From Acetobacter aceti (GTDB taxonomy: Bacteria; Pseudomonadota; Alphaproteobacteria; Acetobacterales; Acetobacteraceae), in contig NZ_CP014692.1 of the NCBI RefSeq assembly GCF_002005445.1, positions 3,224,501 to 3,288,500 on the forward strand: 64,000 nucleotides of DNA, in the 5' to 3' direction. Each line of letters begins with the position of its first letter. Within the stretch, counting starts at the first letter, position 1. The notes beneath the pieces are model-generated. The model saw only the letters and a program-made list of their open reading frames with translations, searched no databases and was not told the DNA's origin. A program made the position numbers and the translations under genes. Shown here piece after piece: positions 10,703 through 43,872 of the stretch.

Positions 10703-11515
10703 TTACACGTTTTCGGCGATAGAGGTACCGAGTCTCGTGATGAGTAGATGAGCATCGTCTTCGGTCATGGATGCTGTTGGTTTGGAGACCGTGATGGCTG
10801 CGGAGCAACTGCCGTCACTCTCACGGATCGGCATGGAGACCCCCGACACGCCGTTGATGACGGCATTCCGGCGATAATCGTAGCCCAGTTTCTTCACCTG
10901 ATCGATGCATTCATGAATTTTTTCCAGATCCAGCCCGAGCTCGCCATAGCGATGCTGGTTCGCAGCGATGATCGCCATCCGGTTGTCCGGTTCCTGACAG
11001 GCGAGAATCACCATTCCTCCGAGGCCATATCCAAGTGGAAGACGACCACCGAGTCCATCGCTTCCGAGAATTGGCAATGCGCTATCGGTGATGGCCATGT
11101 CGGTGATAATGGCATCAAGTCCTGAACGTTCGAGCAGAAATGCCGAAGCGTGAAACTCCTTGGCCAGTGCGACAAGATACGGCTTCCATTGCTGAATCCG
11201 TTCCACAGGTGTCGTTCTGCGGTGTCCCAGAGAGAAAGCGGCCGGTCCAAGACGGTAACGTCCACGCTGTGTGCTCTGCGTCACGAGCGAGTGCTTGCGG
11301 AGCGCAAGGAGTGTGCGATGAACGGAAGATTTTTCTGCCCCAACGATTTCAGCGAGATCCCTGAGCGCCAGCCCGCGCCTTCCACACTCACCGAGGGCGA
11401 TCAGCACCAATGCGGCACGATCCGAATTTTGCGAGTATTGCCCGATATTATCCACTCGCAGTTTTTCATCCTCGGATTCAGAAAGATTCGCCGAGAGCCG
11501 ATTCTTCAGGATCAT
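10703..11515 (-). CDS. IclR-family transcriptional regulator
   Basis: About 270 residues with the IclR layout: an N-terminal winged helix (AALVLIALGECGRRGLALRD, then SVHRTLLALRKHSLV, roughly residues 33-80) and a C-terminal ligand-binding domain (GLDAIITDMAITDSALPILG; GYDYRRNAVINGVSGVSMPI). IclR proteins control catabolic and transport genes in response to small acids or aromatic metabolites. The ATG at 11515 overlaps the stop of the upstream MFS gene (ATGA, 11512-11515), so the two are translationally coupled and the regulator probably senses the transported compound or a product. An ATG at 11569 is inside the MFS gene and is rejected as the start. Confidence 0.9.
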   Translation of the reverse strand: MILKNRLSANLSESEDEKLRVDNIGQYSQNSDRAALVLIALGECGRRGLALRDLAEIVGAEKSSVHRTLLALRKHSLVTQSTQRGRYRLGPAAFSLGHRRTTPVERIQQWKPYLVALAKEFHASAFLLERSGLDAIITDMAITDSALPILGSDGLGGRLPLGYGLGGMVILACQEPDNRMAIIAANQHRYGELGLDLEKIHECIDQVKKLGYDYRRNAVINGVSGVSMPIRESDGSCSAAITVSKPTASMTEDDAHLLITRLGTSIAENV

Positions 11516-12831
11516 GATCGGGGATTCTCCGCATTGATCGTGCGTTCCGGATGAGTCCAGGCGCAACACAGTGCTCCAATGATACCAGCGACGAGCGGAA
11601 GGCTCAACGCGGCGCTCCAGCTCCCGGTTTGCTTGACGATATAGACCATGGCGATCGGGGCGATACCGCTCGCGGCATTGCCCCAGCAGGTCGTCCAGCC
11701 AGCAAGCATTCCTGTCTGAGTCCGCGTAAGGTCCTGAACGGATGTCCAGATGGAAATCTGGGATAAGCCGGAAAAGGCCAGAGCCAAACTAAAGACCAGA
11801 ATCATCAGGGTTGTGCTGTCAATCAGGTTTCCAACGACTGCCAGTCCACCACAGCACAGTGTCCCTACGATCCCCATCGGCGTGCGGGCCCACCATATGG
11901 AACCCGTGCGTTTGAGGATGTGATCCGCAATCATTCCGCTGACAAAAACCGAAACGTAGAGGAAAAGCCAAGGCATGGAATAGAGCCATCCCATGGAAGT
12001 GTAACTCATATGGCGGTGTTGCATCAAATAGAATGGCATAAGCACCAGAAAAAACGATTGAATCGTCAGCAGGCACATATAATGCAACCCGATGGCCCAG
12101 AACTGGGTGGAGCCGAGCAGGCGGGTAAACTGAAGCCAGCCTTTGTCCTGTTTTCCGGTTAGGTCAGGAGCGGGAAGGGGCGCAGAAGCCGGACGATCCC
12201 GGACAAAGACAAACCACAGAATACTCCAGAGCACACCGGCCACGCCATAGACGAAAAAACTGAGTTTCCAGGAATAGCGTTCTGTAATCTGTGTAGTCAG
12301 CGGTCCACCGACCACGGAGCCCAAGTAAAGAAATGCGAGAAGAACGGAATTTGCTCTGGCGCGGCGTCCGGGAGCAAACCAGTTGTTGATTGTCACGATA
12401 CTTGATGACCAGTCAGGAGACTGGCCCGCTCCCATGAAAAGCCGCACAAGCATGAAACCCAGAAAAGATCCGGCGAAAGGGGTCAGGATCGTCGCGAGAG
12501 ACCATGCGAGGCAGCCTGCGAACAGACAGATACGCGGCCCAAAACGGTTGACCAATATACCGGTCGGAACCTGAAGGACGGCATATGTCCAGAGAACGCA
12601 GGAAATAATCATCGATATTTCGACGAGAGAAAACCCGAACTGCCCCTGAATGCGAGGAGCGGAAAGTGTCATGGCCTGCCTGTCCAGCGACATGAGAAAA
12701 TTGATCGGCGCAATCAGACCAAAAAGAATCAGCCACGATTTTCCCTTCTGGTCTTCCGATGCCCTGGGGAGTTCTTTGGTGCCAGCTACTGTGCTGGGGC
12801 CATGGTCGCATGTTGCCTGCAAAGTCGTCAC
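11512..12831 (-). CDS. MFS transporter, anion:cation symporter-like
   Basis: A 439-residue inner-membrane protein with about 12 hydrophobic segments. The first membrane segment contains the 'R-Q-A/NxxAP' style signature of the anion:cation symporter group (FLMSLDRQAMTLSAPRIQGQ), and the loop 2-3 motif appears as GILVNRFGPR. Relatives import organic anions such as hexuronates, tartrate or phthalate. It heads a two-gene unit with the IclR regulator and is divergent from a TonB-dependent receptor 400 bp away: an outer plus inner membrane uptake pair. Substrate unknown. Confidence 0.88.
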   Translation of the reverse strand: MTTLQATCDHGPSTVAGTKELPRASEDQKGKSWLILFGLIAPINFLMSLDRQAMTLSAPRIQGQFGFSLVEISMIISCVLWTYAVLQVPTGILVNRFGPRICLFAGCLAWSLATILTPFAGSFLGFMLVRLFMGAGQSPDWSSSIVTINNWFAPGRRARANSVLLAFLYLGSVVGGPLTTQITERYSWKLSFFVYGVAGVLWSILWFVFVRDRPASAPLPAPDLTGKQDKGWLQFTRLLGSTQFWAIGLHYMCLLTIQSFFLVLMPFYLMQHRHMSYTSMGWLYSMPWLFLYVSVFVSGMIADHILKRTGSIWWARTPMGIVGTLCCGGLAVVGNLIDSTTLMILVFSLALAFSGLSQISIWTSVQDLTRTQTGMLAGWTTCWGNAASGIAPIAMVYIVKQTGSWSAALSLPLVAGIIGALCCAWTHPERTINAENPRS

Positions 12832-13239
12832 CTTCCAGATCCTTTAATGATGAGGGACCGATTGTTCGCTGGTTGATATCTAATGCCTGGATACGTTGGT
12901 CCCAGGACCGGGGACTGGTTTCGGTCACTACATTACGAACATTCTCTTGGTTCTACACGATCAAATAATTTCGAATTCGATATATCAGCTATCTCGCCTT
13001 AAGGTGCTATCCAAACCGGCATGGCGGGATTTGAAGCTGTCATCGGGTCGGCCCTTCTGAATATCAGTTATATTGTTTCATTAAGCGGCATTATCAGAGA
13101 TATATTTCGGTCACAAAACGACAGTCAGGCTTGCCGACGAGATGTGAACCGCGTCGGCAAATTGGCAGGGCGCGTGCGATAAACTTGAGAAATATCGCTG
13201 GTTAACATTCTATCAGATTTAGAAATGGAGAGATTTTCA
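12832..13239. promoter_or_regulatory. Divergent control region between MFS/IclR unit and TonB receptor
   Basis: About 400 bp with no gene. It contains a perfect 10-bp palindrome TCGAATTCGA at 12971-12980 inside an AT-rich patch, a candidate operator for the IclR regulator, though IclR sites are usually longer. A second AT-rich segment lies near 13060-13110. A ribosome site (GGAGAG, 13227-13232) precedes the receptor start. Confidence 0.35.
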
Positions 13240-15687
13240 ATGAGACTATTACGAAACTCAAGCGGCTTTCCGACTATTTTTCTTCTGCTGGCATCCTGCA
13301 TGCTCACGCCAATGGTCGCCTTGGCCGCGTCCATGAAATCGAAGAGTACTCGAAGTGTTGCGACACACGTTCCTTTGGGTGCCAAAACATCAGCTGTTAC
13401 ACCTCCCCAACCTTCCAAGGCGCGAACGACCAGATCAACGAGGACGGTCATGCAGTCGAATCCTGAGCAGGTTCACGTCACTGGCATGCATCGGATGGCT
13501 GGCGGTCTCATGAAGCGACAGACGGCACCGGAAGCCACCAGCTCCATCACGGCAGAGGCTATTGCCCGGAAATCTTCTATTGCGTCTCCTCTGCAACTCA
13601 TCGCAGCCATGCCAGGCGTCAATTATGGTACGCAGGATGCTTTCGGGTTGAGTATCCGCAACACGATCAGCCTTCGCGGATTCCAGCAGAATCAGTTGGG
13701 TTGGACGATTGAGGGTGCGCCTGGTGTCGATCAGGCCTATTATCTTCCCTATTCGGAAACTTATGCTGATAACGAAAATCTTTCTGACATCACGCTGATT
13801 GCCAGCACCTCGCGCATCAATGATCCCGTGCAGACCGCCTCTGGCGGAGAAATGATCGAGACCGTGCGAGATCCGTCCAAGAAAGCTGGCGGCATGCTGT
13901 CCTATGCCGCCGGGTCTTACCGTTCGCAACGGGTGTTTGGACGTTTGGAGAGCGGCTATCTCGGTCAGTCGGGTGTCCGTGCTTTCGCTTCCGCGTCCTA
14001 CACGGCCGCCGATCTTTTCGCGGGTTCAGGGCGCAGCAACAGAACGCATGTTGACTTCAAGCTGCTCAAGGAATGGAATGGCTGGGGGAAAAGCAGCCTC
14101 TTCGTGTCCTATAATGACTGGAAAAACGCGCGTAGTAACCCGTATACCCTCGCCGCCTATGAGGCTGCGGCTGCCGTCGATAATAATTACTCCGCTGGTA
14201 ATTATTCCTCGACCTATACTGCCGGAAAGACGACGAATTACTGGAAAAACTACATCTATCACCGGAGCAGTGTGCTTATTTCGTTCCAAAACGAGTTTTC
14301 TATCGCAAAAAATCTGAAATTGCATGTTACTCCCTATTTTCACTGGAATTTCTCGAATAGCCCTGGACAGACCTCACTCTCTCCATCCTCGCTTTATGCC
14401 GGTGATCGGAAGGTCACGATCGACACAAATGACGTAACACTGGTCAACGGAAAGTTTGATGCGCTAGCCAATACTGTACAGAAAGAATATGCGGAAGGTG
14501 TAAATGCCTACCTCCAATATGATCCGATCCGAACCAATCATTTGACATTTGGTTACTGGTTCGATCACTGGAATATGGATGCTATTTCCGGTGTGACACC
14601 TCTGGACATTAACGGTAATGCATCAAGCTATGTTGGTGGCGGTCTTCTCCGGGCTACTGACGGCAGTTTCATTGGCGGAACAAAATACAAAGTATCAACA
14701 GACATAAACGAATTTTATATTTCTGATACTCAGACATTTTTGAATGATCGCCTGAAGGTGACGGCTGGGGTCAGGGAAATGATGTTCTATATATCCGGAA
14801 CCAATGGACTGTCCGGTCCGCAAAACCATTTTTCACAGGCAATCACGCAACCTATGCCGCGTGTCGCAATATCCTATCAGATCAACAAAGAAATGCAGGT
14901 CTATATCAACGGCATGACGAATGCGCGTCCGCCTGTTCCGCTTTCGACCTATCCGAACATCTACAACACGTCGACCGGCGCAATCAGTCAGCAGGGCAGG
15001 AACTCCAACCCGATGGAATATACGATTAGTGAGGAAATAGGTTTTCGTTACTATGGCCTCTTCAATCTGGATGTCGCGCTTTTCAATGCTAATCTGACGA
15101 ACCATCAGGTCACCACACAGGCCTTCATCAATGGTGCTTCAACGAATACGTCTATTTCCGCCGGCGGAGAGACCATTCGTGGTGTGACCGCAGAAGTCGC
15201 CCTGCGACCTATGTATGGTCTGACACCTTACATCAATGGGCAGTATCTCCACGCAACGATGGATAATGATTTCAAAACTGCCAATGGATATCTGCCAACA
15301 GCCAGAAAGATAGCTGTCATGAGTCCGAAATTCATGGCAACAATAGGAATGAACTATAATCACGGTCCATTTTTCGCCAATCTCTCGTTCAAATGGGTCG
15401 ATTCCCAATACTCGACTTTTATGAACGATCAGTCGATGCCAGCGTTCAAAACCGTTGACCTTGGATTTGGCTATCGTTTTCCAAAGTGGCTGGTTTTGCA
15501 GGAGCCCACTCTTCGTCTCAATTTTATGAATCTTAACAATGGAGCTTATCTGGGAGGTGTCAGCACTATAACACCCAATGCCAAGGCGACCCGTGCCACA
15601 AATGGCAATACCGTAGCCGCCTCTACACCTGCGTATTTCCTTGCTGCACCTCTGACAGTTGTGATGAGTGTCTCATCATCTTTCTGA
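13240..15687 (+). CDS. TonB-dependent outer-membrane receptor
   Basis: 815 residues starting at the second ATG (13240), which has GGAGAG eight bases upstream; the ATG at 13225 overlaps that site. A signal peptide (hydrophobic FPTIFLLLASCMLTPMVALAA) is followed by a basic Thr/Ser-rich linker and a TonB-box-like element (PEQVHVTG). The plug domain shows ISLRGFQQNQLGWTIEGAPG, and the C-terminal half alternates amphipathic strands typical of a 22-strand barrel, ending in Phe (VVMSVSSSF). There is no STN signalling domain, so no sigma/anti-sigma signalling is expected. The plug is not of the siderophore-receptor subtype seen at 48-64 kb. Beside the MFS/IclR unit it likely imports the block's growth substrate across the outer membrane. 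Confidence 0.9.
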   Translation: MRLLRNSSGFPTIFLLLASCMLTPMVALAASMKSKSTRSVATHVPLGAKTSAVTPPQPSKARTTRSTRTVMQSNPEQVHVTGMHRMAGGLMKRQTAPEATSSITAEAIARKSSIASPLQLIAAMPGVNYGTQDAFGLSIRNTISLRGFQQNQLGWTIEGAPGVDQAYYLPYSETYADNENLSDITLIASTSRINDPVQTASGGEMIETVRDPSKKAGGMLSYAAGSYRSQRVFGRLESGYLGQSGVRAFASASYTAADLFAGSGRSNRTHVDFKLLKEWNGWGKSSLFVSYNDWKNARSNPYTLAAYEAAAAVDNNYSAGNYSSTYTAGKTTNYWKNYIYHRSSVLISFQNEFSIAKNLKLHVTPYFHWNFSNSPGQTSLSPSSLYAGDRKVTIDTNDVTLVNGKFDALANTVQKEYAEGVNAYLQYDPIRTNHLTFGYWFDHWNMDAISGVTPLDINGNASSYVGGGLLRATDGSFIGGTKYKVSTDINEFYISDTQTFLNDRLKVTAGVREMMFYISGTNGLSGPQNHFSQAITQPMPRVAISYQINKEMQVYINGMTNARPPVPLSTYPNIYNTSTGAISQQGRNSNPMEYTISEEIGFRYYGLFNLDVALFNANLTNHQVTTQAFINGASTNTSISAGGETIRGVTAEVALRPMYGLTPYINGQYLHATMDNDFKTANGYLPTARKIAVMSPKFMATIGMNYNHGPFFANLSFKWVDSQYSTFMNDQSMPAFKTVDLGFGYRFPKWLVLQEPTLRLNFMNLNNGAYLGGVSTITPNAKATRATNGNTVAASTPAYFLAAPLTVVMSVSSSF

Positions 15688-16032
15688 GAAGATCTTGAAG
15701 AACATGGACGAAATATTTCATTATTATGAGAATGCCGGACCATGAAACAGAATTTTTTCCTGTTCATACATTAATGTGGCGTTTGTAACCTGACAAAGGG
15801 GTGAAATGAAGAACCATCGATTGATATGTTGGCAATCTGCTTTCAGTTTTGACAGGTAACGATTGATGGTACTCGTCAGCAATAGTCCGTTCGATCCTCA
15901 TGGTGCCGAGGATGGGTTCCATCTGTGATGTTTGGTCGGATAATCATGCGAGCGGAGAAATAGACTATAACTTTTTCAATTATAGAAAATATTTTTCGAA
16001 AACTATTGTTAAGAATGTTCGAACTTATCGGT
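15688..16032. other. Intergenic stretch with possible IS remnant
   Basis: About 345 bp without a gene. On the minus strand 15885-15955 bears a weak resemblance to the IS5-type transposase end at 27300-27390 ('cgatcctcatggt', 'ccatctgtgat', 'tggtcgg/gatcggc'), suggesting a decayed IS. The flank next to 16033 is very AT-rich and is where the aroE-like gene is cut. Confidence 0.35.
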
Positions 16033-16431
16033 TCACGTCAGACGTTTGCGAAACAGCGAGACTGCTCTGATGTCAGACATGTCATCTGAATAATCAGTAT
16101 TATATCCGCTGAGATGTCCATCATTGTTGACGATTGTATTGACAGATCGAATACCAGATGCGGACTCCCTCAGATCGTCAAGGAAAGGGATGCAGCTTTC
16201 CTTGAATGGCATGGAAATTCCCGCGCCACGTATCCCAAGTGCACGAATGCCTTTCACGGCGGCACCAATATCGTCTGTGGTACACGCTTTGTAGAGATAG
16301 TTCAGACCCAGACGGCCATAGAGGTGGTTGTGAAATCGTGTGCCGAAATTACCCGGTCGACCAGCAAGAGAAATGCACAAACGAGTTTCACGATTGATTC
16401 CGTCTCTGTAAGGAAGAACTGCCTCAGCCAT
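16033..16431 (-). CDS. Truncated shikimate dehydrogenase-like protein (N-terminal domain only)
   Basis: About 132 residues matching the substrate-binding domain of the shikimate/quinate dehydrogenase family: LCISLAGRPGNFGTRFHNHL, GIRGAGISMPFKE (the 'xxNVTxPxK' region, here ISMPFKE with the catalytic Lys) and VNTIVNNDGHLSGYNTDY (normally followed by the NAD(P)-binding domain). After NTDY only 15 unrelated residues follow, so the nucleotide-binding half (about 130-140 residues) is missing, probably lost through the decayed mobile sequence downstream. The ATG at 16431 has a GAAGG ribosome site; ATG 16449 and 16473 overlap the upstream gene's end. Last gene of a seven-gene minus-strand run; likely a pseudogene. 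Confidence 0.65.
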   Translation of the reverse strand: MAEAVLPYRDGINRETRLCISLAGRPGNFGTRFHNHLYGRLGLNYLYKACTTDDIGAAVKGIRALGIRGAGISMPFKESCIPFLDDLRESASGIRSVNTIVNNDGHLSGYNTDYSDDMSDIRAVSLFRKRLT

Positions 16432-16438
16432 ACTGCCT

Positions 16439-17584
16439 TCATCTTTCATTCGTGTCTTCCTTTCGATGTTCAAAGCGCCCGATACCGAGTGCGCTCACGG
16501 GCCATTTTTCATGAACAGATGTTTCGCCAACGATCATGTCGGCAATAATGGCGCCGACAACAGGAACAAGAGCGAAGCCGTGTCCTGAGAAACCGTAGCA
16601 GTAGAATATTCCGGGCAATCGTGAGGAGGGGCCTATAATCGGTAGATCGTCTGGGGTTCGTGCCTCGATCCCTGTCCAGCATCGGGCAATCCGTACTCCA
16701 GCGAGTTGTGGAAACAAACGGAGAGGCGTGGTCATGCCAGTCGCCAGTGCGTGAAAATCCACATATGTACGTTCTTTTTCTACATCCGCCTGCCCCTGCA
16801 GGCCTCCGCCAATAAGAAGGCTACCAGTCCGCGTCTGTTTCAGAGAGAGCGCCTCTCCGACACAACCAATGACCGGTCCGGAAAACTCACTGACCTGTTC
16901 GGTCACAGTCATCATTGATGCTTTTACGCCCGCAGGAACTTTCTCCCCAACCAAGCCCGCTAACGCAGCGCTCCAGGTGCCCGCTGCGATGACGACTGAT
17001 GCGGCGACAAAAGTCTCATAATCGGTATCAACACGCCATTCGAGGCTTTCTGAAGCAAGTGCATTCACTCCACGGCCTTCGAGCAGCAATACACCAGCGC
17101 TTTCAGCGGCGCGGCGATACGCGTTGACGGTCAGATGCGGGTCGGCTGACCCGTCATCCCGCGCATAGGAAGCGCCAGAACAGTGAGGGGCAAGCGATGG
17201 CAGCAGCGTGTACAGAGATGCTTTGTCAAGCATCTCTTCGTGTGTGTACCCGGCCTGTTGCAGACTGTTTACACGCTGGGCTTCATGGGCAAGATCAGTT
17301 GGATTTTCAGCGATACGGACCTGCCCGACCTGTTGAAAACCACAATCTTCACCAAGGGAATCAGCCAGACTACGCCACAGTTCCAGAGAGTGGAGTGTCA
17401 GGTCGAGTTCCCGCCGGTCGCGGTTCAGGGCCCGGATACCACCGGCATTGGCGGTGGATGCATGACGTCCGATCCAGCGACGTTCCAGCACGGTGACCGA
17501 AACGCCGCGCCGTGCCAGTTGCAGGGCGCAGGACAGCCCGTGCAGGCCGCCACCAATAACCACGACATCAATTGTGTGGATCAC
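16439..17584 (-). CDS. FAD-dependent oxidoreductase, DAO family; beta subunit of an amino/imino-acid dehydrogenase
   Basis: 381 residues with an N-terminal Rossmann motif (VVVIGGGLHGLSCALQLARR, residues ~8-27), the acidic end of beta-2 (VTVLERR), and a C-terminal FAD motif (ARTPDDLPIIGPSSRLPG; YGFSGHGFALVPVVG). This is the D-amino-acid/sarcosine oxidase fold, close in layout to HcnC, the opine-oxidase B subunit and the beta subunit of D-hydroxyproline dehydrogenase. Its ATG overlaps the stop of the upstream FAD subunit (ATGA), and that gene overlaps a [2Fe-2S] subunit, so the three form one enzyme. The likely reaction is oxidation of a C-N bond in an amino or imino acid with electrons passed to the respiratory chain; substrate not determinable. 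Confidence 0.88.
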   Translation of the reverse strand: MIHTIDVVVIGGGLHGLSCALQLARRGVSVTVLERRWIGRHASTANAGGIRALNRDRRELDLTLHSLELWRSLADSLGEDCGFQQVGQVRIAENPTDLAHEAQRVNSLQQAGYTHEEMLDKASLYTLLPSLAPHCSGASYARDDGSADPHLTVNAYRRAAESAGVLLLEGRGVNALASESLEWRVDTDYETFVAASVVIAAGTWSAALAGLVGEKVPAGVKASMMTVTEQVSEFSGPVIGCVGEALSLKQTRTGSLLIGGGLQGQADVEKERTYVDFHALATGMTTPLRLFPQLAGVRIARCWTGIEARTPDDLPIIGPSSRLPGIFYCYGFSGHGFALVPVVGAIIADMIVGETSVHEKWPVSALGIGRFEHRKEDTNER

Positions 17585-18987: not shown

Positions 18988-19315
18988 TGTTTTTCGCCTG
19001 TCCCTGGCAGGAGATATCCGGTAGAGGACAGGGGCCGTTCTGACGCTGGATACTCATCCCGTCACGTGCGGGGATCAGGCAGGTCCGAAGTGAGGCCGCA
19101 CCATCAATGATCGCCACGCATTCAAAGCAGATGCCCATCATGCAGTAGGGTGCGCGTGGTCGCCCGGCATGGTCGTGTCCTGTCGCTCCGTCACACGTTC
19201 TCAGAAGAATGGCGGCGACACTTTCGTCTGCCAGCGCCGGTACGGTCTGCCCATCGACTATCACCCGGATATTGGTCGGCGGTGCAAATCGGCTCCGTGA
19301 AAAATTCACAATCAT
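18980..19315 (-). CDS. [2Fe-2S]-binding small subunit of the FAD dehydrogenase
   Basis: 111 residues with a plant-ferredoxin-like cluster motif: Cys58, Cys63, Cys66 and Cys79 (YCMMGICFECVAIIDG then RTCL), i.e. C-x4-C-x2-C-x12-C. This matches HcnA and the N-terminal domain of sarcosine oxidase alpha. It would relay electrons between the two FAD subunits encoded immediately downstream. A 25-bp gap separates it from the SDR gene upstream. Confidence 0.9.
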   Translation of the reverse strand: MIVNFSRSRFAPPTNIRVIVDGQTVPALADESVAAILLRTCDGATGHDHAGRPRAPYCMMGICFECVAIIDGAASLRTCLIPARDGMSIQRQNGPCPLPDISCQGQAKNSG

Positions 19316-36600: not shown

Positions 36601-37031
36601 CCCGGCGGGAAAAGGAAGACACGGACATTATGGGAGAAGACTTCCTTGACCGTCTTGTGACTGCGATGCGTCGCTATGAGGTGAAGGAGGCCGAATTTGA
36701 ATACGAAGGCACTGTCCTTTCTGTCAAGCTGTTCCCTGCAAAGACGGGCAGTGCACAAGACAAGTTCGTATCCGTGGACAAGACCGATCCCGAAACTACG
36801 TCTGATATCCTTGTAAGGAGCCCTGAACTCGGATGTTTCGCAAGCGCGGGTAAAAAAGTCGGTGACGCGGTCATGTCCGATGATGTGATCGGTTTTGTGC
36901 GTGTCGGCGTTTTACGGCTTGCGATCAGGGCTCCAAAAACTGGTTTTCTTGCTGAAAAGTTCATCAACGATGGTGAACCGATTGGGTATCATGCGCCTGT
37001 CTTTCGTATTCAGATCACGCCTGTGACATGA
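36597..37031 (+). CDS. BCCP-like protein lacking the biotin-attachment lysine
   Basis: 144 residues overlapping accC by four bases (ATGA); an internal ATG at 36630 is another possible start. Residues 72-140 align with the biotinyl domain of the neighbouring AccB (hydrophobic beta strands, a Gly in the turn at 116, and the PIGYHAPVFRI ending parallel to PVEPGMPLFTV). Where AccB has EVMKT, this protein has RVGVL: Gly104-Val105 replaces Met-Lys, so it cannot carry biotin in the normal way. The N-terminal half resembles the AccB N-terminal region (FLDRLVTAMRRYEVKEAEFE against LMARMQKLGIAELEVRQ). It may be a structural or regulatory subunit of the unusual carboxylase. Confidence 0.75.
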   Translation: MTRREKEDTDIMGEDFLDRLVTAMRRYEVKEAEFEYEGTVLSVKLFPAKTGSAQDKFVSVDKTDPETTSDILVRSPELGCFASAGKKVGDAVMSDDVIGFVRVGVLRLAIRAPKTGFLAEKFINDGEPIGYHAPVFRIQITPVT

Positions 37032-37057
37032 AAGATATGGCAAACTGGCTATCCAGG

Positions 37058-37603
37058 CTACAGGGACGATACGGAGCGGGACGCCTGCTCATAAAATCCA
37101 TTGATGATACGAAGAGCCTTTGCGACTTCAGCAATTGTGATGCCGCCGACGCAATGGTCATCGGGCACGAGTTCCAGCAGGCAGACGTTGCGCAGGCGAG
37201 CGTACTCCTCACAGTAGGCCACACCTTTGGCGGACGTCCAGACGAAAACCTCCTTGCCCTGCTTGCGTCGCTCGATCAGTCCCCGCTCATCGAGCTTTTT
37301 CATCGCGTAATTCAGGTAATGGCGTTCGGAGATGTTCAGAGCAAACATCAGGCTTGGGATGCTCTTCTCCTTGGAACGGTGATTGATGTGATGAAGGAGG
37401 AGAGTTTCAAGTGCCGACAATTCGGGCAGACCGGCAGCCGTCATACAGCGGACGATCCAGTGCTGAAATGCATTGTTCATAACTGTCAGGGAAAATTCAA
37501 ATTCGCTCAGATCTTCGCTTCCCGGCGTCGCAAGATGAGAGGACGACACAATGAACGGTCGCTGGTCCTGTCTGCGCGTCTTCGTCCCGACGGTCGCCTT
37601 CAT
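37058..37603 (-). CDS. MarR-like winged-helix transcriptional regulator
   Basis: About 181 residues starting from ATG 37603 with a GGTGGAG site; an upstream in-frame ATG at 37699 would overlap the divergent hyuA start. The central part (SALETLLLHHINHRSKEKSI, then LNISERHYLNYAMKKLDERG and LIERRKQGKEVFVW) is a winged helix with a wing, of the MarR/HTH_27 type. It lies between two metabolic units, convergent with the pxp-acc operon and divergent from hyuA-hyuB, so it is the natural local regulator of the second HyuAB unit. Confidence 0.8.
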   Translation of the reverse strand: MKATVGTKTRRQDQRPFIVSSSHLATPGSEDLSEFEFSLTVMNNAFQHWIVRCMTAAGLPELSALETLLLHHINHRSKEKSIPSLMFALNISERHYLNYAMKKLDERGLIERRKQGKEVFVWTSAKGVAYCEEYARLRNVCLLELVPDDHCVGGITIAEVAKALRIINGFYEQASRSVSSL

Positions 37604-37701
37604 TTTCTTAGCTCCACCCTGTGTCACCGTTACCTCTCTTCCGCATTTCCTGTTTGTCGTAGCTTCCGCGCCACGCGAGCCTAACATCTTTGAGGACATC
37701 G

Positions 37702-39810
37702 ATGAACACCACGACAGATTGCACCGCCATCCGCCTTGCTGTCGATATTGGCGGCACCTTTACTGATGTTGTGCTCGATACTCTCGAAAGGCGTTATACC
37801 CGTAAAGTGCTCACTACGCCGTTCGCACCAGAAGAGGGCGTAATGAACGGTGCTGCGCTGGTGTTACAGGACGCACAGCTCTGTCTGTCGGATATCGGAG
37901 AATTCGTCCACGGCACCACTCTTGCGACCAATGCGATCATTGAGCGACGGGGCGCCAACACAGCCCTGATCGGCACGGATGGATTTCGTGATGTTCTGGA
38001 AATCGGCACGGAAAGTCGCTTTGACCAGTATGATCTGATGATCCGCAAGCCTGTGCCACTTGTGCCGCGCACCCTGCGTTTCACCGTCCCGGAACGCATG
38101 GATGCGAGAGGAAAGGTCAGGTTGCCGCTTGATGAAGCGGTCCTGGCTGAAATCGCGGACAGTCTGCGGCGTGGCGGTGTCGAAAGTGTCGCCATAGCCT
38201 TCCTGCATGCTTATGCCAATGATGCGCACGAAACGCACGCACGAGATTTCCTCGCAAGAATGCTACCGGACGTTGCGATTTCGATTTCCAGCGAAGTGTG
38301 CCCAGAAATTCGGGAATACGAGCGTACATCCACCACAGTCGCCAATGCCTATGTTCAGCCTTTGATGGCAGGATATCTCGGTCGCCTGCGTGACGGTCTG
38401 TCGCGCGACGAATTCCGGGGCGCATTCTATCTGGTCACGTCGAGCGGTGCGTTGACTTCCCTTGAAACCGCCAGTTTGTTTCCCGTCCGTCTTGTGGAAT
38501 CTGGTCCGGCGGGCGGTGCGATATTTGCCGCGCAATGCGCAGAGAGGATGAAAGAGACTCAGGTGCTGTCTTTCGATATGGGCGGCACAACGGCCAAGGT
38601 CTGTCTTGTCGAGCACTTTCGTCCTACTTCGTCACGCACCTTCGAGGTCGATCGTACGGCCCGCTTCATGAAGGGATCGGGCCTGCCCCTACGTATTCCA
38701 GTTATCGAAATGGTGGAGATCGGCGCTGGCGGTGGTTCGATCGCCCATCTGGATGCGATGAAACGGGTAACTGTCGGGCCGGAAAGCGCATCCTCGGTGC
38801 CCGGACCGGCCTGCTATGGTCTCGGCGGCACGCGACCTGCTGTTACGGACGCCGATATCGCACTGGGCCTGTTGCGGCCCGACGGGTTCGCGGGGGGGAG
38901 TATGACGTTAAGTCAGGAACTCGCGAAACAGGCTTTGCTTACGGATATCGGGGAGCCTCTTGGTCTTACAGCAGAAATGGCGGCGCATGCGGTTTATGAA
39001 ATGGTGTGCGAAAACATGGCTAGCGCCGCGCGCGTCCATGCTGTGGAGCGGGGTGTGGCCATTGGTGAGCACACGATGATCGCCTTCGGTGGAGCAGCCC
39101 CGCTTCACGCTGTCCGGGTCGCGGAAAAGCTGGGTATCCGCCGTTTGGTGATTCCGTCCAACGCTGGTGTCGGCTCGGCTGTTGGTTTCCTCACCGCGCC
39201 TCTGGCCTTCGAGGTCGTCCATTCATATCCGGCACGTATTGATGACAGTTTCGATACCGCAGGCGTTGCCGCTCTGCTCGAAGGCATGACGGAATCCATC
39301 ATGAGTGTGCTGGCGCAGGGCGCCCCCCGGGCGGATACTTTTCGTGTCGAACGCCGCGCCTTCATGCGTTATGTGGGACAGGGCCACGAAATCGCAATCC
39401 ATCTGCCGCCGGGAGAGAAAGCGGGTCCACTTGATGTGACGGCCCTGCGTGCGGCCTTCGAGCAGGATTACGCACGGCAGTTCTCACGCGCTATTCCGGG
39501 GGCGGTCGTCGAGGTCATGAACTGGTCCGTCACCGTTTCCGCTCCGGCGGTGTCGCCGCCGCCCTATGCGCCTACTCCGCCGCTGCGACCGGTGCAGTCC
39601 GATCAGCGCTGTGCCTTTTTCTCCGGTGATGTCGAAGGTGTTGTTGAGCTGGCAGTGCATTATCGCAAGGCCATGCAGCCGGGTGATGTCCTGACCGGTC
39701 CTGCCCTGATCCGTGAAGATGAAACCACAACGTATGTGTCGGCCCGGTATGATGCTCATATAGACGGCAGCGAGAACATTGTTCTGACGATGAAGGAAAC
39801 TGCGTCATGA
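37702..39810 (+). CDS. hyuA: Hydantoinase A / 5-oxoprolinase alpha-type subunit (second copy)
   Basis: 702 residues. The ATP-binding motif LAVDIGGTFTDVVLDT at residues ~12-27 is canonical (GGTFTD), followed by FVHGTTLATNAIIERRGANT, REYERTSTTVANAYVQPLMA, and LSFDMGGTTAKVCLV (second phosphate motif, about residues 290-305) with EIGAGGGSIAHLD. It is only moderately similar to the copy at 23135, so it probably has a different substrate. Start ATG 37702 has GAGG seven bases upstream. Overlaps hyuB by four bases, so the pair is coupled. Confidence 0.95.
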   Translation: MNTTTDCTAIRLAVDIGGTFTDVVLDTLERRYTRKVLTTPFAPEEGVMNGAALVLQDAQLCLSDIGEFVHGTTLATNAIIERRGANTALIGTDGFRDVLEIGTESRFDQYDLMIRKPVPLVPRTLRFTVPERMDARGKVRLPLDEAVLAEIADSLRRGGVESVAIAFLHAYANDAHETHARDFLARMLPDVAISISSEVCPEIREYERTSTTVANAYVQPLMAGYLGRLRDGLSRDEFRGAFYLVTSSGALTSLETASLFPVRLVESGPAGGAIFAAQCAERMKETQVLSFDMGGTTAKVCLVEHFRPTSSRTFEVDRTARFMKGSGLPLRIPVIEMVEIGAGGGSIAHLDAMKRVTVGPESASSVPGPACYGLGGTRPAVTDADIALGLLRPDGFAGGSMTLSQELAKQALLTDIGEPLGLTAEMAAHAVYEMVCENMASAARVHAVERGVAIGEHTMIAFGGAAPLHAVRVAEKLGIRRLVIPSNAGVGSAVGFLTAPLAFEVVHSYPARIDDSFDTAGVAALLEGMTESIMSVLAQGAPRADTFRVERRAFMRYVGQGHEIAIHLPPGEKAGPLDVTALRAAFEQDYARQFSRAIPGAVVEVMNWSVTVSAPAVSPPPYAPTPPLRPVQSDQRCAFFSGDVEGVVELAVHYRKAMQPGDVLTGPALIREDETTTYVSARYDAHIDGSENIVLTMKETAS

Positions 39811-41393
39811 CGACAAATGCTCTTCTTACAGACGCGCAGCAGGAAATCCATTTCCAGATCATGTGGAATCGTCTGATCGCTGTTGTCGGCGAACAGGCTC
39901 GCGTCCTGATCCGCACCGCCTTTAGTCCGATCGTCCGCGAATGCGAAGATATCTCTGCCGGTGTTTTCGATCCCCATGGGCGCATGGTGGCGCAGGCTGT
40001 CACGGGCACTCCGGGCCATGTGAATTCCATGGCGGAATCTGTCGGTCATTTTCTTCGTCATTTTCCCATTGAGTCGATGAAGGAAGGTGACGCGTACATC
40101 ACCAACGATCCCTGGATGGGCACGGGTCACCTGAATGACTTCGTTATCACGACCCCGGCTTTTTATCGTGGAAAGCTGGTTGCCCTGTTTTCCTGTACTG
40201 GTCATCTGATGGATATTGGCGGCTTGGGGAATGGCCCGGACGCCACTGATGTATTTATGGAAGGCCTGTCGATCCCCATGCTCAAGCTGGTCGATCAGGG
40301 CAGGGTGAACGAGACACTGATGGCCATGATCTGTGCCAATACGCGTTTGCCCGTGGATACGGAGGGCGACACCTATTCCCTCATCGCCTGCAATGATGCT
40401 GGTGTTGAGGCGCTGTGCTCCATGATGGATGAATTCGGTATTGAGACAATCGAACCGCTGACGGATTATATCATTGATCGTTCCCGGAGAGCCGTTCTCG
40501 AAAAAATCGCGGCTCTGCCGAAAGGCAGCTGGTCCTACACGATGACGGTGGATGGGTATGACGCTCCTCTCGACCTGAAGGCGGCGCTGACGATTGCCGA
40601 GGATGGCGTAAGCGTCTCCTATGCAGGCTCTCCCCCTGCCATTAAACGGGGGATCAATGTGCCACTGGCCTATACGAAAGCGTACACGGTCTTTGGTCTG
40701 GCCTGCGCCATTTCTCCCGATATTCCGAACAATGCTGGCTCGTTCGCGCTCTATCGCGTGGATGCGCCCGTCGGATCGGTGCTGAACGCCCAGCGCCCTG
40801 CTCCGGTCTCCTCCCGTCATATCATCGGGCAGATGCTGCCTGACATGGTGTTTGGTTGCCTGCGCACACCTCTACCAGATCGCGTTCCTGCCGAGGGTAC
40901 ATCCTGTCTGTGGAACATCACCGTTCGAGGACGCTGGAAGCCCGATGATGGCGCGCGCGAGACGCAAGTCTTCGCTCTGGCAATCACGACCAATGGGGGG
41001 ACTGGCGCGCGGCCAAAGCTGGATGGCCTGTCAGCTACGGCGTTTCCGTCTGGCGTTCGCGGTACTCCTGTCGAAATTGCAGAGAATCAGTGTCCACTGA
41101 TTTTCTGGAAGAAAGAACTACGTGAAGGAAGCGGTGGTTCTGGCCAGACATGCGGCGGCGATGGGCAGGTGATGGAAATCGGCACGACCAACGATGACGC
41201 CTTCGAATTGCTGGCGGCTTTCGATCGCGTCAAATACCCTCCACGCGGTGCGCTGGGGGGAGGGGATGGCGCGGCTGGCATCGTGAAAACCTCGAAAGGC
41301 CGGTCTCTCTCATCAAAGGGATTGCATATTATCGCCCCGGATGAACGGCTGCACTTACTGACACCGGGCGGCGGCGGTCTCGGCACACCCTGA
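39807..41393 (+). CDS. hyuB: Hydantoinase B / 5-oxoprolinase beta-type subunit (second copy)
   Basis: 528 residues of the HyuB family: LIAVVGEQARVLIRTAFSPI near the N-terminus, GVFDPHGRMVAQAVTGTPGH, GDAYITNDPWMGTGHLNDFV (GDxxxxNDPxxGxxHxxDxx signature) and the C-terminal glycine-rich LTPGGGGLGTP. It forms the ATP-dependent ring-opening enzyme with the preceding HyuA. The gene order hyuA-hyuB-2-hydroxyacid dehydrogenase-MFS suggests a product processed as a keto or hydroxy acid. Confidence 0.95.
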   Translation: MTTNALLTDAQQEIHFQIMWNRLIAVVGEQARVLIRTAFSPIVRECEDISAGVFDPHGRMVAQAVTGTPGHVNSMAESVGHFLRHFPIESMKEGDAYITNDPWMGTGHLNDFVITTPAFYRGKLVALFSCTGHLMDIGGLGNGPDATDVFMEGLSIPMLKLVDQGRVNETLMAMICANTRLPVDTEGDTYSLIACNDAGVEALCSMMDEFGIETIEPLTDYIIDRSRRAVLEKIAALPKGSWSYTMTVDGYDAPLDLKAALTIAEDGVSVSYAGSPPAIKRGINVPLAYTKAYTVFGLACAISPDIPNNAGSFALYRVDAPVGSVLNAQRPAPVSSRHIIGQMLPDMVFGCLRTPLPDRVPAEGTSCLWNITVRGRWKPDDGARETQVFALAITTNGGTGARPKLDGLSATAFPSGVRGTPVEIAENQCPLIFWKKELREGSGGSGQTCGGDGQVMEIGTTNDDAFELLAAFDRVKYPPRGALGGGDGAAGIVKTSKGRSLSSKGLHIIAPDERLHLLTPGGGGLGTP

Positions 41394-41447
41394 ACGCGCG
41401 TCAGGCTTTTATCTCTCCTCGTTTTTCCGGTTCGGAGCACCGATCTC

Positions 41448-42398
41448 ATGCCAGCCTGCTTTATCACCCAGCCTATTGCCAAGGAGGCGGTCGCCTTTCT
41501 GCGCCAGCAGAATGTGACAGTCCGCTTTGCTTCCTCAATGACGATGGCAACCGTCATCAAGGAAGTCGGTGCAGCGGACGCCGTCATTACGCGCGATCTG
41601 GGCTTTAGCGCTGCAGCCGTCGCCGCTGCCCCTGCCTTGCGCCTCATTGCCTGTCATGGTTCCGGCACCGACCGGATTGCTGTGGATGCCGCCAAAACTC
41701 GTGGAATCGTGGTCACGCGGGCTCTTGGCAGCAATAGCCGCTCGGTTGCTGAACTGACGATTGGACTGATGCTGACGGTGGCGCGTCGTATCTGCGAAGC
41801 GGACCGGGCTGTGCGCGCAAATGACTGGGTCTTTCGCTATCGCGGTGCAGGAATGGAACTGCACGGCAAAACACTGGGGCTTGTTGGATTTGGCGCCATC
41901 GCGCGCGAAGTGGCGCGGATTGCCGCTGCGGGATTTGGAATGAATGTGCGGGCCTGGTCATCCAGTGTGGAGGCATCAGTATTTGCTGAGCATGGTGTGA
42001 CAATGATGTCTGATCTTCCATCGCTCCTGCGTTCCTCGGATGTCATCTCTCTCCATCGTCCAGCCGGTCGGGGTGGTGACGTATCGCCGGTGATTTCGGA
42101 TGAGACGATTCGTGACCTGCGTTCCGGATCGATTTTGCTGAATACCAGTCGAGGAGTCGCCGTGGATCGTGATGCGCTTTTAGCAGCGCTCCAGTCCGGT
42201 CGACTGGCTGGTGCGGGACTTGATGTGCTGGCGGAGGAGCCACCGGAACCAGATGATCGGCTTCTTCAATGTGAAGGCGTTGTCTTCACTCCGCATGTCG
42301 GTGCGGCGACGACGGACGCTCTGGTCCGAACAGCCATGATGTGTGCCCATCAGGTTATGGACGTATTTGCGGGCCGTATTCCGCCGCACGCCTTATGA
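41448..42398 (+). CDS. D-isomer-specific 2-hydroxyacid dehydrogenase family protein
   Basis: 316 residues. The NAD-binding fingerprint is GLVGFGAIAREVARIA (Gly147, Gly149), and the catalytic residues are Arg235 (LLNTSRGVAVD), Glu264 (LDVLAEEPPEPD) and His283 (FTPHVGAA), as in D-3-phosphoglycerate and D-lactate dehydrogenases. It interconverts a 2-keto acid and a D-2-hydroxy acid with NAD(P)H in the cytoplasm. It lies 54 bp after hyuB and probably belongs to the same unit. Substrate uncertain. Confidence 0.92.
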   Translation: MPACFITQPIAKEAVAFLRQQNVTVRFASSMTMATVIKEVGAADAVITRDLGFSAAAVAAAPALRLIACHGSGTDRIAVDAAKTRGIVVTRALGSNSRSVAELTIGLMLTVARRICEADRAVRANDWVFRYRGAGMELHGKTLGLVGFGAIAREVARIAAAGFGMNVRAWSSSVEASVFAEHGVTMMSDLPSLLRSSDVISLHRPAGRGGDVSPVISDETIRDLRSGSILLNTSRGVAVDRDALLAALQSGRLAGAGLDVLAEEPPEPDDRLLQCEGVVFTPHVGAATTDALVRTAMMCAHQVMDVFAGRIPPHAL

Positions 42399-42498
42399 CA
42401 GGTCTTCATAACGCCCGCTTTTCCGTCATGACCACACCCTCTTTCCTGATCTTTTCCCTGCTCCATGCCAGACGGGGTATGATTCAGGGACGAACATC

Positions 42499-43872
42499 AT
42501 GACATCCTCTGCCTTCCCGGAGCCAGGATTGCACGGCTTGGCGCGGATATCGGCCATGAGCGCTGTGGCGCTTGGCCTGCTGCTCGCGGTTCTCGATTAT
42601 TCGGCGGCCAATGTGGCGTTGCCGACGATCGGTCATGACCTCCATGTCCCGTCCTCCGACTCAATCTGGGTCGTCAACGCCTATCAGTTCGCGTCGCTTG
42701 TTACGCTGCTGCCTCTCGCGGCCTTGGGATCGCGTGTGGGGTTTGCCCGCATGTATCTTATCGGCACCACCATCTTCATTGTTGCGTCTGCCCTCTGTGC
42801 CTTATCACACACCCTGACCGAAATTTCTCTGGCGCGCATTCTGCAGGGGCTGGGCAGCGCCTGCATTCTGAGTGTCAATCTTGCGCTTATCCGTTTCATT
42901 TATCCCCCGAAGGAACTCGGCAAGGGAATTGGTCTTAACGGGCTGGTGGTCGGGCTGGGCGTCGCGCTTGGTCCCTCCATCGGCGCAGCCATGCTCAGTG
43001 TGGCGAGTTGGCCGTGGATCTTCTGGCTGAACGTGCCTCTGGGAGGAACTGCGCTACTGTTGGGCTTTTTCGCACTCCCCGCTACCCCGCGTTCTTCAGC
43101 GCCCTATGACATGCCCCACACGTTGTTGTCTGTTCTCGCATTGGGCGGTATCGCGCTGGGTCTGGACGAGTTCGCCCATGGTCATCTCGGTCTGAAAGGA
43201 TTTGGACCACTTGCAATCGGGTGTGCTGCGATTTGTATACTCTGGTATCGCCAGCATGATCACGCCGCTCCGATCTTTCCAGCTGACCTACTGAAACATA
43301 GGCCATTCCGCACAGCTTTTCTGGTCAGTGTGATGAGTTTCATGTCCTCCAACCTCTTCATGATCTCAATCCCGTTCACTCTGCAAACTGTACTCGCAAA
43401 GAGCGCATCCCTTACAGGGCTACTGATCACTGCATGGCCAATCGGCGTTACAATTGCGTCACCCATTTCGGGCAGGTTGGCGGATAGGCTGCCTGTAGGG
43501 CTGGTCTCTTCCTGTGGGCTATTACTAACTGGTTGCGGGTTCGTGATTTTGTGCTGTCTGTCTCCAACGGCGTCCGATCCGATGATCGCCGTTGCTATTT
43601 TGATCGCCGGCATAGGTTTTGGCATATTTCAGCCGCTGAATAACCGCGCCATGATGGCCAACACCCGCGCAGGACGGGAAGGCGGGGCCAGCGGCATGGT
43701 CTCACTCTCCCGCCTGAGTGGGCAAACGCTGGGTGCCACGTCCACCGCCTCTATATTTATGTATGTCCCGTCACGCGCCTCTCTGCTCTGCCTCATTCTG
43801 GCCGCGTTCTGCGCCTTGATTGCGGCGGTGATCAGCGGTAGCCGTCTGTTGACGGTCCGAACTGCACGCTAG
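42499..43872 (+). CDS. MFS transporter, DHA2 (EmrB/QacA) type, C-terminus at an IS insertion
   Basis: 457 residues with the drug:H+ antiporter-2 pattern: motif 'LDYSAANVALPTIGHDL' in the first membrane helix (the family's LDxTIVNVALP), SDSIWVVNAYQFASLVTLLP next, and ARILQGLGSACILSVNLALI. About 13-14 hydrophobic segments. The stop codon TAG lies inside the CTAG target duplicated by the IS5-type element that begins at 43873, so the original C-terminus may have been longer or the same by chance. Drug or metabolite export at the end of the hyuAB unit. Confidence 0.88.
   Translation: MTSSAFPEPGLHGLARISAMSAVALGLLLAVLDYSAANVALPTIGHDLHVPSSDSIWVVNAYQFASLVTLLPLAALGSRVGFARMYLIGTTIFIVASALCALSHTLTEISLARILQGLGSACILSVNLALIRFIYPPKELGKGIGLNGLVVGLGVALGPSIGAAMLSVASWPWIFWLNVPLGGTALLLGFFALPATPRSSAPYDMPHTLLSVLALGGIALGLDEFAHGHLGLKGFGPLAIGCAAICILWYRQHDHAAPIFPADLLKHRPFRTAFLVSVMSFMSSNLFMISIPFTLQTVLAKSASLTGLLITAWPIGVTIASPISGRLADRLPVGLVSSCGLLLTGCGFVILCCLSPTASDPMIAVAILIAGIGFGIFQPLNNRAMMANTRAGREGGASGMVSLSRLSGQTLGATSTASIFMYVPSRASLLCLILAAFCALIAAVISGSRLLTVRTAR

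Follow-up and report, generated by a model that had tools for sequence, protein, structure and literature searches.

Two putative catabolic cassettes with TonB-dependent receptors, HyuAB and Pxp genes in Acetobacter aceti

Gene content and borders of the region

In this work we focused on a region of the Acetobacter aceti genome in which genes for TonB-dependent receptors and major facilitator superfamily (MFS) carriers lie close to genes for ring-opening enzymes of the HyuAB and PxpABC types. The region is part of a stretch of 64,000 nucleotides, hereafter called the window, corresponding to bases 3224501-3288500 of a single-contig genome of 3.73 Mb (NZ_CP014692.1); all coordinates below are window positions. 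An earlier reading of the sequence alone had proposed one dedicated scavenging system. As judged from sequence comparison, the region is rather composed of two putative catabolic cassettes with different relatives, block 1 (9544-27100) and block 2 (28481-43852). Their genes are listed below; Pfam and NCBIfam scans were run on selected proteins.

Block 1:
9545-10363, minus: aldo/keto reductase (PF00248), 96% identical in Acetobacter genome G220; the homology starts at 9544
10703-11569, minus: IclR-family regulator (PF01614, PF09339)
11512-12831, minus: MFS carrier, MFS1 (PF07690; best NCBIfam model TIGR00893, below cut-off)
13225-15687, plus: TonB-dependent receptor, TBDR1 (PF07715 plug)
16033-16473, minus: truncated shikimate-dehydrogenase-like gene (PF08501 only)
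16439-17584, minus: OoxB-like FAD (DAO) subunit of an opine-oxidase-like dehydrogenase (PF01266; 50% to the pTiBo542 subunit)
17581-18987, minus: OoxA-like FAD/BFD-[2Fe-2S] subunit (PF07992, PF17806, PF04324; 42% to pTiBo542)
18980-19315, minus: OoxG, small 2Fe-2S subunit (PF13510; 49% to pTiBo542)
19341-20054, minus: short-chain dehydrogenase/reductase (SDR) oxidoreductase (PF00106)
20070-21626, minus: HyuB1 (PF02538; metal tetrad D47/H107/D110/H132)
21666-22964, minus: DAO2, single-subunit FAD amine oxidase (PF01266; 50% to a Ti-plasmid FAD oxidase encoded beside hyuAB)
23135-25192, plus: HyuA1 (PF05378, PF01968, PF19278; ATP motifs)
25253-25696, plus: RidA-family protein (PF01042)
25929-26918, minus: LysR regulator (PF03466, PF00126)

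Spacer:
27101-28480: 1.4-kb patchwork of repeats of this genome, some of which derive from a transposase

Block 2 and right-hand border:
28592-31093, plus: TonB-dependent receptor, TBDR2 (PF00593, PF07715)
30903-32384, plus: MFS carrier, MFS2 (PF07690); true start probably at about 31.1 kb
32381-33022, plus: PxpB (PF02682; TIGR00370, 191.6 for a cut-off of 145.55, passed)
33019-33993, plus: PxpC-like carboxyltransferase-domain protein (PF02626; TIGR00724, over cut-off)
34019-34783, plus: PxpA (PF03746; NF003814, 351.9 for a cut-off of 226, passed)
34803-35252, plus: biotin carboxyl carrier protein, BCCP (PF00364; biotinyl motif EVMKT)
35194-36600, plus: biotin carboxylase (NF006367, over cut-off)
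36597-37031, plus: lysine-less BCCP paralogue (PF00364 just below cut-off; biotinyl Lys replaced by Val)
37058-37699, minus: winged-helix (MarR-like) regulator (PF13463; 85% identical in Acetobacter sp. DsW_063, 61% in genome G210)
37690-39810, plus: HyuA2 (PF05378, PF01968, PF19278; in a clade separate from HyuA1)
39807-41393, plus: HyuB2 (PF02538; metal tetrad D48/H108/D111/H133)
41448-42398, plus: D-2-hydroxyacid dehydrogenase (PF02826, PF00389; best NCBIfam models PGDH and glyoxylate reductase, below cut-off)
42499-43872, plus: MFS3, DHA2-like (PF07690; best model TIGR00711, below cut-off)
44767-46248, plus: mobile elements, with an rve integrase at 44767-45732 (PF00665) and an IS4/5-type transposase at 45805-46248 (PF13340)

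An open reading frame on the plus strand at 37028-37684 was rejected as a gene; it is the shadow of the minus-strand regulator and is conserved at 48% in the relative, compared with 85% for the regulator.

This inventory confirms the gene content given in the sequence-only reading: two receptor/MFS pairs (TBDR1 with MFS1, TBDR2 with MFS2), two HyuAB pairs, one PxpB-PxpC-PxpA set (32381-34783), a BCCP and biotin carboxylase pair (34803-36600), a FAD dehydrogenase of three subunits including the 2Fe-2S one, RidA, and the IclR and LysR regulators, with the winged-helix protein as a further local regulator. Its description of the MFS proteins as importers may not apply to MFS3, which is closest to DHA2/EmrB-type models.

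The borders of the blocks were defined by nucleotide comparison. The counterparts of window 9544-27100 are single loci of G220 (94% identity) and of a second Acetobacter genome, G217 (88%). Window 28481-43852 has a single counterpart, at 75% identity, in each of three further Acetobacter genomes. Gene order is conserved in all of them, for block 1 in two genomes and for block 2 in three, and the clustering is therefore not due to chance. The syntenic relatives of the window are Acetobacter sp. DsW_063, A. sacchari and A. nitrogenifigens. The flanks of the G220 locus (14 kb on the left and 21.6 kb on the right) contain no match to the window. The block homologies end at 27100 and resume at 28481, and the pieces of the spacer in between match 42 places of the genome, a count that includes the copy in the window. 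The end of the spacer is 72% identical to the rve integrase genes at 7649-8659 and 44767-45732. Because the closest relatives and the distributions of the two blocks differ, and repeat debris lies at their junction, we regard them as separate cassettes, which may have been brought together by the action of insertion sequences. The region had been described as lying between mobile-element scars; such debris is indeed found outside it, but also between the blocks, and block 1 begins at 9544, beyond the range originally given. A tRNA scan found no tRNA gene, and a megablast search of the block 1 DNA against 72,556 plasmid records gave no match.

Block 1 and its relatives on opine-type plasmids

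HyuA1 contains both phosphate motifs, the first being DSGGTFCD, and the adenosine motif GAFPGP. The Asp-His-Asp-His metal tetrad is complete in both HyuB1 and HyuB2, as checked residue by residue in alignments. According to PMC8453981, this HyuB tetrad is required by caprolactamase, and the HyuA phosphate motifs are described there as well. HyuA/HyuB architecture, ATP motifs and tetrad are shared with both N-methylhydantoinase and the caprolactamase CapAB. An identity of HyuAB1 with CapAB was rejected, as HyuA1 and HyuB1 reach 588 and 236 bits, respectively, on caprolactamase models with a cut-off of 1000. Acetone/acetophenone carboxylase was also rejected after comparison with NCBIfam models and solved relatives.

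When plasmid sequences were searched with HyuA1 and DAO2, Ti plasmids of Agrobacterium and related plasmids ranked among the best matches. On the Ti plasmid NC_002377.1 the genes for a FAD oxidase, HyuA and HyuB are consecutive, with RidA and an ATP-binding cassette (ABC) importer nearby, and their products are 50% (DAO2), 63% (HyuA1), 63% (HyuB1) and 55% (RidA) identical to those of block 1. On pTi_CFBP2692 the corresponding values are 40% for the SDR, which is adjacent there, 49% for the FAD amine oxidase, 64% for HyuA, 61% for HyuB and 55% for RidA. HyuB1 and RidA are 61-63% and 55-57% identical, respectively, to their counterparts on four opine-type or related plasmids. A SDR at 38-40% identity directly precedes the oxidase on pAoF64/95, pTi_CFBP2692 and the Martelella plasmid pMM593; no close SDR was found on NC_002377.1, the one near its module being only 24% identical. 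We take the regions on NC_002377.1 and pTi_CFBP2692 to be those for agropinic and mannopinic acid catabolism (aga/mot), and DAO2 to be AgaE-like. An aga-type module is defined by the conversion of agropinic acid, a lactam, to the corresponding open form, mannopinic acid, and AgaE, AgaF and AgaG are reported to take part in the breakdown of agropinic acid.

The three opine-oxidase-like subunits (2Fe-2S, FAD/BFD and DAO) are encoded consecutively in block 1, in the same order as in the trio of pTiBo542, presumably an opine oxidase of the Oox/Nox type. On that plasmid the trio adjoins a gene of the octopine/nopaline dehydrogenase family and an ABC importer, neither of which is found next to it in block 1. 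The ABC importer with a family-5 binding protein is absent from block 1 altogether, and TBDR1 and MFS1 are present instead. As the aga-type importer is missing, we propose for block 1 a mode of action resembling that of an aga module, without equating it with the aga operon; what appears to be new is delivery by a TonB-dependent receptor and a MFS carrier where the relatives use ABC importers.

The relationship was examined further with 35 HyuA1 loci from 34 genomes, of which 34 loci belong to Acetobacteraceae outside Acetobacter and one to Chelatococcus. Seven of them were reached through genomes bearing HyuA2, and contig ends cut some neighbourhoods. For comparison, 19 genomes supplied 20 control loci of HyuA paralogues (about 41-47% identity). 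In a midpoint-rooted FastTree tree, the window, the 35 genomic loci and five plasmid loci form a clade of 41 members with a support of 0.989 and no intruder, all 20 controls falling outside. Homologues of DAO2 were found near 15 of the 35 HyuA1 loci and none of the 20 controls (p = 0.00035), SDR homologues near 12 and none (p = 0.0022), and a family-5 binding protein near 25 and one (p = 1e-6). The locus L214 repeats the Ti-plasmid arrangement, including the ABC importer, at 73-81% identity.

A second set of neighbours may point to Amadori compounds, the glutamine-type members of which can cyclise to oxoproline derivatives. FrlB/FrlD-like genes lie beside HyuAB1 orthologues at four of the 35 loci and on a Terrarubrum plasmid, where SIS, PfkB, RidA, FAD oxidase and SDR genes are located upstream of HyuAB1. 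Among family models, the Terrarubrum SIS protein scores best with fructoselysine 6-phosphate deglycase and the PfkB protein with fructoselysine 6-kinase, both below cut-off. Block 1 differs from FrlB/FrlD-type catabolism in lacking both genes, and would use oxidases in their place. Taken with the plasmid comparisons, this leads us to read HyuAB1 as an opener of lactams of the opine/Amadori type, i.e. N-substituted oxoprolines. The lactam class of substrate put forward by the sequence-only reading is thus retained, with opine/Amadori-type lactams fitting block 1 better than the compounds it named. Nothing favours its cyclic dipeptides or pyroglutamyl peptides, and no peptidase was found among the Pfam matches inside the blocks.

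For block 1 we infer the following order of steps. TBDR1 and MFS1 would import a N-substituted lactam of the pyroglutamate type, e.g. agropinic acid or deoxyfructosyl-oxoproline, which HyuAB1 would open at the cost of ATP. Either DAO2 or OoxABG would then oxidise the secondary amine to an imine, which would set free glutamate together with a fragment that is either a sugar or a keto compound. RidA may remove the imine, and the SDR and the aldo/keto reductase could reduce the carbonyl product.

Several observations weigh against this assignment. The excess of OoxA near HyuA1 loci (9/35, compared with 1/20 controls) is not significant (p = 0.075), and neither is that of the FrlB/FrlD-like pair (4/35 and 0/20, p = 0.28); RidA and OoxG were each found near only one of the 35 loci and none of the controls. 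The identities of these neighbours are often low (29-38% for OoxA, 42-50% for the SDR), so that some of them may be different enzymes. At E ≤ 1e-15 and a distance of up to 9 kb, neither the 35 HyuA1 loci nor the 20 controls have a neighbour homologous to TBDR1 or TBDR2, and the proposed role of TBDR1 in block 1 therefore rests on three Acetobacter genomes. The shikimate-dehydrogenase-like gene of G220 has no match in the Terrarubrum stretch at E ≤ 1e-5. The Ti-plasmid hyuAB homologues (AgaF/AgaG, with AgaE) are reported to open agropinic acid; the record of NC_002377.1 gives the module genes nothing but generic names. Finally, the closest solved relative of HyuA1/HyuB1 is N-methylhydantoinase, which keeps a hydantoin substrate in consideration.

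With such a substrate, of the hydantoin or N-methylhydantoin/creatinine type, HyuAB1 would open a cyclic ureide and OoxABG or DAO2 would oxidise a N-methyl amino acid. Besides the solved relative, the models of the two DAO proteins agree with it: glycine oxidase ThiO is the best for both, followed closely by sarcosine oxidase models, and none of these reaches its cut-off. The Pfam matches of block 1 include no carbamoylase, amidohydrolase or creatinine deaminase, and the closer relatives of HyuA1 (63-66%) lie in opine-plasmid clusters and clusters containing FrlB/FrlD; we therefore consider this route improbable. Creatinine/N-methylhydantoin, ergothioneine-type thiohydantoin, hydroxypyroglutamate and allantoin routes were considered as well, and none of them accounts for the Ti-plasmid and FrlB/FrlD neighbours.

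The shikimate-dehydrogenase-like gene of block 1 is full length in G220 (298 amino acids), and in the window 108 bp replace 816 bp of the relative. On the Terrarubrum plasmid a gene annotated as shikimate dehydrogenase directly precedes HyuA2.

Block 2 and the Pxp loci of Acetobacter

Block 2 is, in sequence terms, an elaborated version of an arrangement common in Acetobacter, in which a TonB-dependent receptor, a MFS carrier, PxpBCA and biotin carboxylase are encoded together. PxpA loci were found in 24 of the 49 Acetobacter genomes. Among the matches listed (37 rows, with two broken PxpA pieces of genome G183 taken as one locus), a TBDR2 homologue lies within 12 kb at 22 of the 27 PxpA loci, and 21 of the 27 contigs with a TBDR2 homologue of at least 58% identity have it near PxpA. 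The five loci missed are G210 C206, where another TonB receptor adjoins the Pxp genes, G191 C39, a plain miss, those of G217 and G221, on contigs of only 14.8 and 12.6 kb, and that of G208, with a partial match on another contig. Across the class (385 genomes), a PxpA search at E ≤ 1e-88 found three genomes beyond that of the window.

Seven further Acetobacter clusters (L242-L248) were inspected, two of which, L243 and L246, are cut at the end of the stretch examined. TonB receptor, MFS and Pxp genes are common to all, with biotin carboxylase in 6/7, a carrier in 7/7 and an aminotransferase in 5/7. The genes of these clusters, whose order varies, are those for the aminotransferase, lysine-less BCCP, biotin carboxylase, BCCP, a SDR, PxpB-PxpC-PxpA, a drug/metabolite transporter (DMT)-type protein, MFS2 and TBDR2; an aspartase-like gene is present in four, this and the DMT-type gene being named by eye. 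The gene set suggests an aspartate- or glutamate-like product.

These counts also bear on the receptors. TonB-dependent uptake had been tied to ATP-dependent ring opening in the sequence-only reading, and the association is supported: TBDR2 accompanies PxpA as described, and at 92% identity or more TBDR1 is confined to the block 1 genomes, occurring outside the window only in G217 and G220 among the 49 Acetobacter genomes (next best among the matches listed, 47%). Uptake of siderophores or metals, unrelated to the enzymes, could be argued from TBDR2, which among NCBIfam models scores best, at values far below every cut-off, with receptors for siderophores, haem and B12; in view of the linkage to PxpA and to block 1, we consider it very improbable.

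The AlphaFold model of the lysine-less carrier matches the BCCP domain 1bdo (TM 0.83 by target length; mean pLDDT 76, pTM 0.50). In the biotinyl-lysine column, two true BCCPs have K, and each of the 15 aligned lysine-less members has another residue (V, P, L, S, T or E). A lysine follows three residues downstream in the two Mesorhizobium members, not in a MK context, and the members of L244 and L245 contain an IMK close to their C-termini, at a distance from the biotinyl site. A search of 160 genomes of the family with the protein gave one weak match beyond the window, and a profile later found more. This profile, built from 15 members of which 14 belong to the loci scanned, was applied to the 26 Pxp loci already collected in the analysis, which are not a random sample. 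It matched 18 of the 19 loci with a biotin carboxylase, the single miss being L246, and both loci with a BCCP-like match and no biotin carboxylase, compared with none of the five loci with neither; six of these 20 finds are independent of the build.

The lysine-less gene lies beside biotin carboxylase, BCCP and Pxp genes in the window (36597-37031), L183 (8552-8947), L037 (8416-8841) and L161 (13409-13855), and its hosts are Acetobacter, another Acetobacteraceae genome and Mesorhizobium, the plasmid annotation being only 'biotin attachment protein'. The Pxp loci of Maritimibacter and Pseudooceanicola (L050 and L051) contain the BCCP-like and lysine-less matches, with no biotin carboxylase match in the stretch searched. 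On the Mesorhizobium plasmids (L183 and L184) the Pxp and biotin carboxylase genes lie among those for an aminotransferase, a FAD oxidase, a Ldh-family oxidoreductase and a RraA-family protein, with a proline-racemase-family gene on one of the two, hinting at a hydroxylated proline or oxoproline as substrate.

We propose that the TonB receptor-MFS-PxpBCA-biotin carboxylase system of block 2 acts on rings resembling 5-oxoproline, and that biotin carboxylase and BCCP probably supply a PxpBC of the carboxyltransferase type. The lysine-less paralogue would be a structural part, and HyuAB2 and the 2-hydroxyacid dehydrogenase additions. A part of urea amidolyase is homologous to PxpC, and the carboxyltransferase of that enzyme works with biotin carboxylase and BCCP domains, which makes a ring-opening enzyme using carboxybiotin plausible. 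Biotin carboxylase, BCCP and the CT_A_B and CT_C_D domains are all present in block 2 as in urea carboxylase/urea amidolyase. Block 2 differs in that they are separate proteins, there is no allophanate hydrolase, and the urea carboxylase model TIGR02712 (cut-off 1303.85) is far from being reached by PxpC (136.7) or biotin carboxylase (453.9). Two further features weigh against the functions proposed here: PxpC misses its equivalog model NF045499 (271.3 for a cut-off of 500), only the broader TIGR00724 being passed, and the adenosine motif of HyuA2 is SSVPGP instead of GxxPGP, its phosphate motifs being present.

A simpler function, which we regard as possible if doubtful, is the scavenging of free 5-oxoproline by PxpABC, the biotin carboxylase pair being a hitch-hiking copy of acetyl-CoA carboxylase. 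According to PMC13274462, PxpABC and the transporter PxpT support the growth of Corynebacterium on 5-oxoproline; as there, block 2 has PxpA, PxpB, PxpC and uptake genes in one operon, and differs in adding the TonB receptor, MFS carrier, biotin carboxylase, BCCP and lysine-less paralogue. PMC12427679 treats the biotin carboxylase pair as an acetyl-CoA carboxylase copy and handles Pxp separately. The PxpA and PxpB models are passed, five of the 26 Pxp loci have neither biotin carboxylase nor BCCP and two more have the carrier alone, and in the Acetobacter clusters L242-L248 biotin carboxylase is in a divergent operon. A likely housekeeping AccC, 56% identical to the block 2 biotin carboxylase, is encoded elsewhere in the genome, so that the latter is an extra copy. 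The kinship of PxpC with urea amidolyase argues against hitch-hiking, as does the presence of the lysine-less paralogue in 18 of the 19 loci with biotin carboxylase, in Acetobacter, another Acetobacteraceae genome and Mesorhizobium plasmids.

Going further in the opposite direction, block 2 and its relatives in the genus could encode an undescribed biotin-dependent lactam or ureide hydrolase, joined here to a Ti-plasmid-like opine/Amadori-lactam pathway and fed by TonB. Carboxybiotin, made by the extra biotin carboxylase and used by PxpBC, would activate a ring nitrogen for PxpA to hydrolyse the ring, the lysine-less paralogue would serve as a conserved structural subunit, and the TonB receptor would supply the substrate. 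The outcome in this strain would be TonB-driven scavenging of lactams formed from sugars and amino acids. We put this forward tentatively.

Three genes beside the block-2-like operon of G220 (L154, 14404-17987) encode a M20 hydrolase of the carbamoylase family, which passes TIGR01879, a PGA_cap protein that scores best with the model of the lasso-peptide epimerase MslH without reaching the cut-off, and a FAH-family protein. The M20 hydrolase and the PGA_cap protein recur in genomes G201, G191 and G217.

Distribution of the two blocks

Whole blocks co-occur in one of the 49 Acetobacter genomes, that of the window. HyuA1 of at least 95% identity is present in three and PxpA of at least 90% in four of them, the window genome being counted in each case and being the only one with both. 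Three Acetobacter genomes contain block 2 in full and gave no match to HyuA1 at E ≤ 1e-200, one of these genomes, apparently that of DsW_063, being only 68% complete. Besides block 1, both G220 and G217 carry at another place a block-2-like operon (34-73% identity) without HyuAB2, which in G220 is about 155 kb away from block 1.

Outside Acetobacter the HyuAB1 and HyuAB2 lineages do meet. Five Roseomonas-type loci contain, within one cluster of about 14 kb, the order HyuA1-HyuB1-binding protein-SDR-OoxA-OoxB-phosphotransferase-HyuA2-HyuB2 (binding protein and phosphotransferase identified in L042), and the Terrarubrum plasmid carries both lineages about 24 kb apart. Of 24 HyuA2-bearing loci, two were left out of the search for HyuA1. 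HyuA1 was found in 14 of the 22 genomes searched, including all 12 of the Roseomonas type with HyuA2 of at least 59% identity; three non-Acetobacteraceae genomes with HyuA2 at 60% have no HyuA1 at the search threshold. In the background of 160 sampled genomes of the family, HyuA1 of at least 60% occurs in 32, the window genome included and a partial match (G120, 61%) left out. Maritimibacter and Pseudooceanicola have HyuAB2 beside Pxp genes and a homologue of the 2-hydroxyacid dehydrogenase (31-32%), without HyuA1. Co-occurrence had been named as the check on a single system; it is found for the HyuAB1 and HyuAB2 lineages in the five Roseomonas-type loci, but not for the whole blocks beyond the window genome.

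The Roseomonas-type clusters leave room for a functional link. The two blocks might act in series on the same compound, for example HyuAB1 and the block 1 oxidases on a substituted lactam and PxpABC/HyuAB2 on the free lactam that results, with mobile elements merely splitting one unit. The frequency of HyuA1 in Roseomonas-type genomes with HyuA2, far above the family background, agrees with this, as does the presence of a Pxp operon of the closer type in all three Acetobacter genomes that contain block 1 (P = 0.0065, compared with 10/49, relatedness being ignored). The Pxp association loses strength when all 24 PxpA genomes are counted (P = 0.11), and the five linked loci are close relatives that may reflect a single event. 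Receptor, MFS carrier and regulators are separate in each block, block 2 occurs whole without a HyuA1 match in three Acetobacter genomes, HyuA2 occurs without HyuA1 at the search threshold in three genomes outside the family, and the block-2-like operon of G220 is distant and lacks HyuAB2. We thus consider one integrated pathway rather unlikely. A role of block 1 as half of an indivisible system was rejected on the block 2 genomes without HyuA1 and the separate synteny borders, and with different relatives and distributions and a junction of repeat debris, the single dedicated system of the sequence-only reading is not upheld. On balance, it seems probable that the two cassettes were acquired independently and set side by side near mobile elements, with the functions proposed above for block 1 and block 2. 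The region would then combine an opine/Amadori-lactam-like module with one of the Pxp-biotin type, both equipped with a TonB-type receptor and joined at mobile-element debris.

If this is correct, compounds from crown galls and decaying plants would feed acetic acid bacteria through TonB receptors; no paper joining the terms TonB-dependent, opine and Amadori turned up in the literature collection searched. A PxpBC using carboxybiotin would add biotin-dependent ring opening to enzymology; otherwise, the biotin carboxylase would be kept for another reason. The comparisons also suggest, as a hypothesis, what the substrates may be of many 'hydantoinase/oxoprolinase' genes on plasmids and chromosomes that bear only generic names.

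In a Pseudoroseomonas locus (L045, 17603-19829), genes for the ethanolamine ammonia-lyase EutBC lie about 4 kb downstream of HyuAB2.

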